DNA of 54,748 bases, from IMG/VR virus record IMGVR_UViG_3300044798_000072, positions 1 to 54,748 of that record; one strand, written 5' to 3'. A program made the position numbers and the translations under genes. This document shows, in pieces, positions 33,525 to 50,113 of the stretch (position 1 is its first letter; every line of letters begins with the position of its first letter). This DNA comes from a virus. The notes beneath the pieces were generated by a model. That model searched no databases. It was not told where the DNA came from and saw only the letters and a program-made list of their open reading frames with translations.

Positions 33525-34592
33525 ATGAACGAACCAAAAACAATCGAAATGGAAATCGTCAGTCAAACCGACGACAAGCTTGTAAAATTCGCAACCAAGA
33601 CGGGACTTGAAAAGGGCAATAATATACTTGACTCACATGCGGCAAAAGGTTTAATCTTTCCGAAACCTAAACGAAAGAAAAAACCCGTGACCGTTATAAT
33701 TGGAATAATTTGCGAATTTGGAATCGTGCTGGCAAGCGATAGTCAAACCACGTTTGGAGATAACTCTAAAAGGTGTGATGCTGAAAAAATCCGCGTGGTA
33801 AAATTCAAAGAAAGCGACGACAAAGTATTGGTAGCCCAATCAGGGTCAGTTGAAACATCAAGCCGAGCAATAGACGTAATGGAACAATTGGCGGCTGACC
33901 GAAAATTGGAAAACGAAGAAACGGTTATCAGCACTGTCCAGAAAGCCATGCATAAAGTAAGAACAGAAATACGACATCAAAACTTCGATTGCAGCGCGGA
34001 AGAATTCGACAAAATCATAACCAATCACGGATTGGACTGTTCTTTGATGACGGCGAATTTTTTCGACAAGAAGCCTTTTATTCACACATTTAACTTTCAG
34101 CGCGGAACAACTGAAAACTGCAAAACATTTTACGAATCCACCGGATGCGGCTCTGCGCTGTCCAATTATATTTTAAGCGAATTATGTTCACCAAAAATGG
34201 ATTCTCGGTTGGGACAAGCCATTGCAGTTTATGTCGTAGATAAAGCGATCAAACACGTTGCCTACTGCGATAGGCCAATACGATTGGCGACCATTTATCC
34301 GTGGGAGTCGTCATTCTTTCCTTCACCATCAAATTTGCTTGGCTCTCTACTTGATGAATCTAAATCAACAGCGCCGCGCATATTTTCATCTGCTCCGCCC
34401 TTATTTATGGACAATGTTAAGATAGAAGACGCCGAAGAAGTCGAAAAAATCATAAATAAAGTGACTAAAATTGATGAGGAAACAAAGCCGCAGAGAATTA
34501 AAAAGCTACGCGAAGCATTGATTTCTTACGCTGACACAATGAATGACTATTCCCAAGCAGCCTTAACAAAGAAACAAGCACCAAATGAATAA
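33525..34592 (+). CDS. Proteasome beta/HslV-like Ntn hydrolase
   Basis: 355 residues. After a 55-residue N-terminal extension ending KRKKKPV comes TVIIGIICEFGIVLASDSQT. Taking Thr56 as T1, Asp72 is D17 and Lys88 is K33, the three canonical residues of proteasome beta subunits and HslV. VAQSGSVETSSRAID follows where beta subunits have their conserved small-residue loop. The extension fits a propeptide removed to free the Thr nucleophile. The last 130 residues have no clear homology. It overlaps the transposase start by 8 bases. Either a phage peptidase or a subunit that interferes with host proteolysis. Confidence 0.65.
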   Translation: MNEPKTIEMEIVSQTDDKLVKFATKTGLEKGNNILDSHAAKGLIFPKPKRKKKPVTVIIGIICEFGIVLASDSQTTFGDNSKRCDAEKIRVVKFKESDDKVLVAQSGSVETSSRAIDVMEQLAADRKLENEETVISTVQKAMHKVRTEIRHQNFDCSAEEFDKIITNHGLDCSLMTANFFDKKPFIHTFNFQRGTTENCKTFYESTGCGSALSNYILSELCSPKMDSRLGQAIAVYVVDKAIKHVAYCDRPIRLATIYPWESSFFPSPSNLLGSLLDESKSTAPRIFSSAPPLFMDNVKIEDAEEVEKIINKVTKIDEETKPQRIKKLREALISYADTMNDYSQAALTKKQAPNE

Positions 34593-35379
34593 CGAATTTC
34601 CACAAACCCTAGTCGCCGCAATTCGGCATTTCTCTGACCCGCAAGTGGCGTTTGACTTCATGGTGAAACTGCGCTGGCCGGACAAGGTGAAATGCCCGCG
34701 CTGCCAGTGTGAGGACGTGAGTTTCATTGCCACGCGCAAAATCTGGAAATGCAAGCATTGCACAGAGAAAGGCCAGTTCTCCGTTCGCGTCGGCACGATT
34801 ATTGAAGATAGCGCATTGTCATTGGACAAATGGCTTGCCGCGATCTGGATGATTGCCAATGACAAAAACGGCGTTAGCTCCTACGAAGTTCATCGCTCAA
34901 TCGGCGTCACGCAAAAAACCGCTTGGTTCATGCTGCAAAGAATCCGGCTCGCTATGCAAACCGGCACGTTTGAAAAGATGAAGGGGGAAATCGAAGCCGA
35001 CGAAACTTATATCGGCGGCAAAGTTCGCAATATGCACGTTGAACAGAAACGCAAACGCGGTCGCGGGACTGGCGGCGTAGGTAAGGCGATTGTTATGGGA
35101 TTATTGGCGCGGCACAGTAAAGCGGGCACAAGTAAGGTGAAGGTCAAACACGTTCCAAACTCCCGGCGCGGCACGGTTCAAGGCGAAATCCGCGAACACG
35201 TCGAGGCTGGTTCACAGGTGTTCACGGATGCCCTGCCATCTTACAATGGGTTGAATCCTGATTACGTTCACGAAGCAATCAATCACGCCGAATGTTATGT
35301 GCGCGGGAATGTTGCGCGACATGGCCCGCGTGAAGTTGATGGACGAATCACTGTCAGACTCCATCTGGACAAAAGTTAA
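34585..35379 (+). pseudogene. IS1595-type (ISXO2-like) transposase, C-terminally truncated
   Basis: 264 codons. N-terminal zinc ribbon CPRCQCEDVSFIATRKIWKC with following CKHC, a helix-turn-helix region (WLAAIWMIANDKNGVSSYEV, GVTQKTAWFMLQRIRLAM), the first catalytic Asp in EIEADETYIGGK and the second in VFTDALPSYNGLN. The family then has a conserved YVRGxVHTNxIExFWSLxKR segment with the last catalytic residue. Here the text departs after CYVRGNVARHGP. So the enzyme lacks its final active-site part and is probably inactive. No clear terminal inverted repeats were seen. Confidence 0.75.
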
Positions 35380-35422
35380 TGAACTCGCCGATTGGTGCGA
35401 CGAACAAGCCCAAAGAATATGA
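35321..35422 (+). CDS. 33-residue ORF overlapping the transposase 3' end
   Basis: MARVKLMDESLSDSIWTKVN ... WCDEQAQRI in another frame than the transposase, more protein-like than the transposase frame here. It may be the 3' part of an original early gene cut by the IS insertion. Confidence 0.35.
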   Translation: MARVKLMDESLSDSIWTKVNELADWCDEQAQRI

Positions 35423-48708: not shown

Positions 48709-48781
48709 ATCCTATTTTTGGTAATAATATACCTGTTACAACATGGCCATTATCGGCCATTTGGCCCGGCGTGACCTGATT

Positions 48782-48952
48782 TCAACGGTGCTTTTTGGCT
48801 TCCCGTTTTCTAAAGTTGCCGGCCTGAAATTCAGCCAACTGTTTGTCCGATTCCGCCTTGGTGTTTGACAACACATTCCTGACGGCTCTTTTGAAGCCGT
48901 CAAACGAAACCAGCGGAATACCGTCGGCTGATTGATGTTTTTTGCCGCTCAT
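48782..48952 (-). CDS. Small basic helical protein
   Basis: 56 residues, MSGKKHQSADGIPLVSFDGF then KRAVRNVLSNTKAESDKQLA. Helical, basic C-terminus. It fits between DUF1353-like and DUF7689-like genes. Not recognised. Confidence 0.5.
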   Translation of the reverse strand: MSGKKHQSADGIPLVSFDGFKRAVRNVLSNTKAESDKQLAEFQAGNFRKREAKKHR

Positions 48953-48961
48953 CAAATCATT

Positions 48962-49531
48962 TCACCATTTTACCACAAAATTTAATAAGACTTTTAAAAA
49001 ACCCGACTTTTCTATCCTTTCCCTTCTTAAAATTTTAATTGGTTCTCCATAAGCGGGGTATCTTCCGTTTAGGCATTCAAGCGTCGTATGTTCAATAATT
49101 GCATGTCTGCCGAGTTTGCTTCGCCAGTTGCCATTTATCGTTTGTCTGGCAGCATGAGTTGGCATTCCCGCAAAAGTATGTGGCGGCGTTCCGATTCGGT
49201 CAAAATAAATAGCCACCTTTTCAAAGTTAGGTTCATCAAGCTTTTCATCGAACTCGTTATATCGTGATTTCAATGAACAAAACATCTCAATAAAAGCAGG
49301 AACGCTTTGTTCTCTAGTCACTCCGTCTGGCCAATAATACAGATAATATGGGTCTGGCCACCACCACCGCGTATTGTCGCCAGCAGCATAGGCAATACAA
49401 TTGTATCTTTTAAGCCTCCACCAGATCATCCATTTAGGCCAACTAACAATGCGATATAATTCTCTAGTTAAGCTAGGGAACAAACCCTTTTCGAGTTTTC
49501 TTGGCAAATACCTTTTAATCCAAATACCCAT
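48962..49531 (-). CDS. DUF7689-like protein
   Basis: 189 residues. YNCIAYAAGDNTRWWWPDPY, YWPDGVTREQSVPAFIEMF, KVAIYFDRIGTPPHTFAGMP and HAARQTINGNWRSKLGRHAI form the pattern NCIAxAAGDxxxWWxP...YWP...KVAxY...THAARQ...W-x-SKLG-x-x-I-x-H seen in a bacterial family of unknown function. Conserved Cys/His/Asp could form an active site. It overlaps the upstream partner gene by 17 bases. Confidence 0.55.
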   Translation of the reverse strand: MGIWIKRYLPRKLEKGLFPSLTRELYRIVSWPKWMIWWRLKRYNCIAYAAGDNTRWWWPDPYYLYYWPDGVTREQSVPAFIEMFCSLKSRYNEFDEKLDEPNFEKVAIYFDRIGTPPHTFAGMPTHAARQTINGNWRSKLGRHAIIEHTTLECLNGRYPAYGEPIKILRRERIEKSGFLKVLLNFVVKW

Positions 49532-49916
49532 TCTCTTTTCCCCATTTCAACCAAGCATCTCTCATCTTTTTTAAATTTCCCGCATCCTCTGGCTTAACTG
49601 GCGAAGCTTTTGTGAGCGCCCTTAATGCAGTAAACCAGTGATTTGTTTCCTTTTTCAAATCACGAAGAATAAATTTAATAGCCGGTTGCCCCATTCCTAT
49701 AATATCCAAGTAGTCGGGATGCATGACAATTGCGGAGATCGCAGATTGAAATTTTGTTTCATTTTTCCATCTCTTTGACTTCTGATTAAATTCTGTTTCC
49801 AACTGCGAAATATCAACGGAACCTGCTGGTGCGGCAAATTTCAAGGCGGCATCCGCGTCAGCAAAAAATTCAGTGGCCTCTTTCAGCGTCTTTGGAAACT
49901 CGTTGTTTTCTTTCAT
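49515..49916 (-). CDS. HEAT-like partner protein with a transposase-like N-terminus
   Basis: 133 residues. Residues 1-27 (NNEFPKTLKEATEFFADADA) resemble the start of IS1595 transposases (compare NNEFPQTLVAAIRHFSDPQV at 34585). The rest (IVMHPDYLDIIGMGQPAIKF, ILRDLKKETNHWFTALRALT, KMRDAWLKWGKENGYLD) matches a small bacterial family often found next to DUF7689-like genes. Has its own promoter just upstream. Confidence 0.55.
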   Translation of the reverse strand: MKENNEFPKTLKEATEFFADADAALKFAAPAGSVDISQLETEFNQKSKRWKNETKFQSAISAIVMHPDYLDIIGMGQPAIKFILRDLKKETNHWFTALRALTKASPVKPEDAGNLKKMRDAWLKWGKENGYLD

Positions 49917-49922
49917 GCCACA

Positions 49923-49950
49923 AATTTAACACAAATCATTGTTGTGTCAA
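49923..49950 (-). promoter_or_regulatory. Sigma70-like promoter for the two-gene module
   Basis: On the minus strand: TTGACA (49945-49950), 16-base spacer, TAAATT (49923-49928), ATG at 49916, 6 bases downstream. Nearly leaderless. Confidence 0.5.
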
Positions 49951-50113
49951 GTATATTATTACCCTATTTTTCCATTCGATTATCGTGTTGAGGATAAACC
50001 ACCCAACCACAACCGAGCCGAAGATGATTAGGAATATGGCCATATTAAAAACCGGGGCTTTTTCCTCCTTGTTACACAGTAATGTTATACGAAGTGTGCC
50101 CCGGCGATGGAGA

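Follow-up and report, generated by a model that had tools for sequence, protein, structure and literature searches.

The window analysed here spans 54,748 bases and is a single record from an uncultured virus. It contains an open reading frame whose product resembles proteasome-like peptidases, and this frame overlaps by 8 nt that of an IS1595-family transposase; the terminal repeat of a mobile element lies inside the peptidase frame, and a second element of the same type is found elsewhere in the window (Table 1).

Table 1. Features of the peptidase locus and of the second element; G007 is a related phage record and L013 a viral contig.
Feature	Position	Strand	Evidence and remarks
Chimeric ORF	33525-34592	+	355 aa; ATG start at 33525
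First 30 codons of disrupted phage gene	33525..33614	+	60% identity over 30 aa to G007 ORF N-terminus
Left terminal inverted repeat	33615..33632	+	GGCAATAATATACTTGAC, 18 bp; exact in 14 further viral contigs
Promoter-like site (predicted)	33628..33657	+	-35 TTGACT from repeat; -10 TTTAAT (16 nt) or TAATCT (18 nt)
Proteasome-like Ntn hydrolase; native start probably GTG, giving a Met-Thr N-terminus	33687..34592	+	301 aa; PF00227, phrog_1040, AlphaFold model, fold search, relatives' alignment
Catalytic-site codons	Thr 33690-33692; Asp 33738-33740; Lys88 33786-33788; Lys93 33801-33803; Gly107 33843-33845	+	
IS1595-family transposase	34585..35379	+	PF12760, PF12762; NF033547 E=7.7e-39; comparison with full transposase of L013
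Probable 3' remnant of disrupted phage gene (LRDM...KVNELADWCDEQAQRI)	35312..35422	+	aligns to G007 gene C-terminus; suggestive
Second IS1595-type element, non-autonomous	48720..49963	-	both inverted repeats, 8-bp duplication CTATTTTT, no transposase

Fold and catalytic residues of the peptidase

The product of the 33525-34592 frame matches PF00227 over residues 56-256, where it exceeds the curated threshold with E=1.1e-7. It also matches phrog_1040 (annotated 'peptidase HslV family'; E=2.1e-9), and together these matches are more than chance would give. An AlphaFold model of the peptidase part, taken from codon 55 (pLDDT 70, pTM 0.70), has the strand and helix succession of the proteasome type, and proteasome subunits are its top matches among solved structures (Foldseek E 2e-10; Z about 20), with an Anbu chain giving the longest structural alignment among the top chains (Z 19.8 over 213 residues). 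A fold search of viral models returned as its top matches many phage proteins of the same fold, some of them annotated as proteasome or HslV subunits. A sequence-only reading of this DNA had proposed an Ntn-type fold, which a predicted structure lacking the Ntn sandwich would contradict; structure prediction and the fold search bear the proposal out, and the model has the four-layer fold. Judged by profile matches and predicted structure, the product is a real proteasome-fold N-terminal-nucleophile hydrolase. The model has an extra helix after H1/H2, and its C-terminal ~100 residues, partly low-confidence and partly helical, gave no convincing profile or family match.

Thr56, Asp72 and Lys88 sit at spacings 1/17/33, as the same reading had pointed out, and the Thr/Asp/Lys/oxyanion Gly set of the PF00227 (T1) proteasome-like family is present; its choice of Lys88 as the catalytic lysine fared less well. 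That choice is suggested by a phmmer alignment against the PDB, which aligns Lys88 and not Lys93, but the family alignment (A3), in which T56, D72, K93 and G107 are invariant columns, favours Lys93. The nine aligned relatives, which come from phages and bacteria, vary in their Thr-to-Lys distance from 32 to 37, but in every one of them the catalytic lysine precedes the conserved oxyanion Gly by 14 residues; in the peptidase, Lys93 lies 14 residues before Gly107, and we therefore assign it as the catalytic lysine. Strand S3 begins directly after Lys93 in both predicted models. The 33-residue spacing to Lys88 is probably a coincidence, and a catalytic lysine is present whichever of the two serves.

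Since no component of an N-terminal threonine hydrolase is missing, peptide-bond chemistry is expected. A proteasome-like protein is not necessarily a protease, as connectase demonstrates (PMC8665760), and the extra helix, the long C-terminal part and a Cys (within a GCG motif) in place of the Ser129-equivalent could fit a connectase-like ligase or transferase, or an inactive regulatory paralogue; however, Thr, Asp, Lys and the oxyanion Gly are all conserved, and we consider a non-protease role rather unlikely, if a serious alternative.

The IS1595-family element and the N-terminal extension

The element ends were found by reading L013, a 60.8-kb viral contig, beside the window; general repeat searches did not reveal them. 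The chance expectation of the terminal repeat in the window is 0.04 (up to 3 mismatches). In L013, the same 18-bp sequence precedes the IS1595 transposase by 67 bp, and a degenerate form with three two-fold positions matches 114 stretches, many of which have an inverted second copy 1.8-3.3 kb away, with an IS1595 transposase starting shortly inside one repeat. Most of the paired copies are bordered by perfect direct duplications of 8 bp, such as CATCCTTC in L013, and the combination of repeat pairs, duplications and transposase in these relatives marks the repeat as the element boundary at 33615.

Members of the IS1595 family have a zinc ribbon, a DDE domain and 8-bp duplications (PMC8101967), and those of the related Merlin group have a terminal GG. 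The transposase next to the peptidase has both the zinc ribbon and the DDE_Tnp_IS1595 domain, and the element resembles passenger-carrying IS1595 elements in this type of transposase and in its GG-starting repeat, and relatives of its kind also have the 8-bp duplications; it differs from passenger-carrying IS1595 elements in that its passenger, placed between left repeat and transposase, is a proteasome-like hydrolase. In the peptidase-bearing copy the left repeat is present and the right end is deleted, so that its own target duplication is not visible; both terminal repeats and the duplication are seen in the 48720-49963 copy and in most intact relatives. From about 35312 the transposase C-terminus is replaced, with loss of the last part of the DDE domain, and the protein ends before the HTNG.ENFW motif, short of the complete catalytic domain of an autonomously mobile element; the transposase is truncated and dead. 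A separate origin of the peptidase gene is suggested by its base composition: its GC content is 41% and its GC3 40%, whereas the transposase and most phage genes have about 52% and 60%.

The second element carries two ORFs, one with DUF7689 and the other a hybrid beginning with a transposase N-terminus (MKENNEFPKTLKEATEFF...). Elements of this cargo-carrying type occur in many phage contigs (L013, L032, L035, L036, L038, L042, L051, L056, L058, L065, L078, L089, L091, L102, L116, and L117), and the passengers of other phage-borne copies include DUF3800, SocA/Panacea antitoxin domain, and PIN domain proteins as well as unknowns. No second peptidase was found in the ORFs of the repeat-bearing contigs fetched, among 80 listed of the 114 matching stretches.

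Upstream of the repeat, the chimeric ORF begins as a different phage gene. Its intact homologue is a 404-aa ORF of G007 (L045:5790-7001), a record whose terminase is 66% identical to that of the window phage and in which PF00227 has no match; none of 5000 shuffles attained the alignment score of residues 1-30, and the DNA similarity ends at 33614, one base 5' of the repeat. The G007 protein has a long, coiled-coil-like middle rich in Ala, Glu and Lys, and no Pfam match. On the far side, the alignment of 35312-35422 to the C-terminus of the G007 gene has a score reached by 18 of 5000 shuffles. Residues 31-36 come from the terminal repeat itself, residues 31-54 together correspond to the element end and promoter leader in frame, and the extension is predicted to be disordered (pLDDT 33-36 across residues 1-50). 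On this sequence evidence, the 55-residue extension is a truncated phage gene start joined to a transposon end, and no propeptide.

The sequence-only reading had taken the extension for a possible propeptide, which in a phage-owned proteasome beta-like subunit would be cleaved before Thr56. The frame is indeed open from ATG 33525, with a start context usual for the phage, and proteasome beta subunits do possess propeptides (PMC8665760). However, the match of residues 1-30 to another phage gene stops at the base before an IS1595-family repeat, the next six residues come from that repeat, relatives are without the extension, residue -1 is Val where Gly is typical of beta subunits, and Fuchs et al. 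report propeptides solely in proteasome beta and HslV (PMC8665760). Being phage gene plus transposon end, the extension does not correspond to the cleaved propeptide of beta subunits, and we give a genuine propeptide next to no credence. Accidental in-frame read-through of such an element end is not improbable: over 20 ends, 12 of 60 frames are open, and the peptidase's frame is open in 4 of the 20.

In principle, metagenome assembly could have created the junction by fusing a phage contig with a transposon from a bacterium; the record does come from an uncultured virus, and the same junction was not found in a second contig. Yet phage-gene sequence flanks the element on both sides, the boundary coincides exactly with the element end, and the same contig holds a second element with its target duplication, all of which make an assembly artefact extremely improbable.

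Native start and promoter

Codon 55 of the ORF, at 33687, is GTG, and there is no in-frame ATG, GTG or TTG between the terminal repeat and this codon. All nine aligned relatives start with Met-Thr and have no conserved extension; the native peptidase thus most likely begins Met-Thr, and removal of the Met would expose the catalytic Thr. In HslV, the nucleophile is exposed in this way, by a Met-Thr start followed by Met removal.

TTGAC forms the end of the terminal repeat; 17 nt further on, 20 other element ends have a hexamer resembling a -10 box, with the start of the next gene a few bases downstream of it. Over the 21 scored ends, matches to the -10 box average 3.86 of 6 at 17 nt and at most 2.3 at other spacings. 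The candidate -10 boxes of the peptidase-bearing copy have a spacing of 16 or 18 nt where 17 is usual, and the GTG is about 30 nt beyond them; we infer a promoter at this element end from the arrangement of these motifs. In the wider set of cargo-carrying IS1595-type elements, the -35 box of a promoter with 17-nt spacing is part of the repeat GGYAAYWATATACTTGAC, and transposase starts often lie just 5-10 nt past the -10 box, which suggests that their mRNAs may be leaderless.

At most gene starts of the window phage there is no Shine-Dalgarno sequence, and the bases immediately 5' of the ATG are AT-rich. ATG 33525 has the AT-rich context typical of the phage's genes, better than that of the GTG, and this context favours it as a native start; we rejected it for the element because of the homology break at 33614. 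With so good a context, the long chimera may also be translated. The fusion would then be a new N-terminal extension, either blocking the Thr or autocleaved; the junction is open in frame, and in-frame read-through, seen at 4 of 20 other element ends, is not rare. Against this stand the promoter-like site and GTG downstream of the ATG and the predicted disorder of the extension, and we regard translation of the chimera as the present state of affairs as improbable. The further proposition, that the fusion became a working N-terminal extension, a propeptide created by transposon insertion, and that the phage uses the peptidase, is very improbable.

Relatives, proposed history and implications

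No close relatives of the peptidase were found in viral contigs, species genomes, annotated phages or plasmids. A profile of three sequences recovered distant relatives only, about 800 genomes of three phyla yielded one distant relative, and the relatives found are 16-24% identical to the peptidase. Neither a scan of viral contigs for the motif GxVxAxDSxTT nor a PADLOC scan of the peptidase gave a match. Membership of HslV or proteasome beta proper does not hold at curated cut-offs: the peptidase scores 14.8 bits against 157.75 for TIGR03692 and 16.5 against 137 for NF003964 (both HslV), and 33.8 against 224 for TIGR03634 (archaeal/proteasome beta).

In the course of these searches we noted a conserved two-gene module, present in both viral contigs and bacterial genomes, in which a small winged-helix-like protein is encoded directly upstream of a Met-Thr proteasome-like hydrolase (L014:1722-2246 and L030:1993-2436, both on the minus strand; upstream of position 4001 in L017, L018, L019, L021, and L022). 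Both copies of the winged-helix-like protein that were scanned match PADLOC PDC-M19A-like (E about 1e-12), and the module is possibly a regulator or toxin-antitoxin-like pair. A phage contig also encodes a compact 207-aa Met-Thr proteasome homologue (L002:8386-9006, minus strand; phrog_1040 E=1.8e-18).

Phage proteasome homologues, PPH, AAH, and CPH, have been described (Fuchs, Alva and Lupas 2021, PMC8665760), so that the phage location of the gene is not itself new; these proteins, the PHROG 1040 phage family and the many viral-model homologues run counter to the earlier view that such subunits are very unusual in phages. The sequence-only reading is therefore upheld in part, in observation and interpretation alike: fold and catalytic residues stand, propeptide and phage rarity do not. 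PPH, AAH, CPH, and PHROG 1040 proteins share with the peptidase a phage-borne proteasome fold with the Thr nucleophile second, no propeptide and no known unfoldase. Unlike them, the peptidase has about 300 aa, a longer pre-Lys loop, an extra helix and a ~100-residue C-terminal part, and it sits in a transposon, not amid phage genes. With HslV and proteasome beta subunits it shares the fold and Thr1/Asp17/Lys/oxyanion Gly, but it lies far below the family cut-offs and has no propeptide, and no HslU or alpha-subunit gene was recognised among the window proteins scanned. Anbu (ancestral beta subunit) likewise has helices at the C-terminus, but is 12% identical, and the C-terminal part of the peptidase is longer and low-confidence. 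The unusual feature is that the gene is carried by an IS1595-family element; we found no report of a proteasome-like passenger in an IS1595 element in the literature searched, from which subscription journals were largely absent.

We are confident that an IS1595-family transposon with a proteasome-like passenger hit a phage gene and was later partly deleted, leaving the passenger intact with its GTG start. The transposon carrying the Ntn hydrolase inserted at codon 31 of the phage gene, as the sequence shows, and a later deletion, which is strongly suggested, would have taken the transposase end, the right element end and most of the phage gene while sparing the passenger. The passenger would be translated from GTG 33687 and transcribed from the promoter to which the terminal repeat contributes the -35 box, and removal of fMet would expose the Thr nucleophile as in propeptide-less HslV-type proteins. 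The predicted fold of the peptidase is that of a proteasome beta-type subunit in which Thr1, Asp17, Lys and the oxyanion Gly are all in place. The enzyme would most likely hydrolyse peptide bonds, alone or as a putative homo-oligomer, and would do so with no unfoldase from the phage; the scanned window proteins included no recognisable HslU-like or proteasomal ATPase, and AAA-type matches among them occur only in a DnaB helicase. Ring formation may be altered or prevented by the extra helix that follows H1/H2 and by the C-terminal part of ~100 residues; Fuchs et al. argue likewise for other subfamilies (PMC8665760).

The locus carries a warning that what looks like a propeptide in a called ORF can be a transposon junction. 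With the repeat sequence as a handle, the many cargo-carrying elements of this kind in phage genomes could be gathered, and small IS1595-family transposons with a promoter in the terminal repeat represent one concrete route for proteasome-like enzymes into phages.
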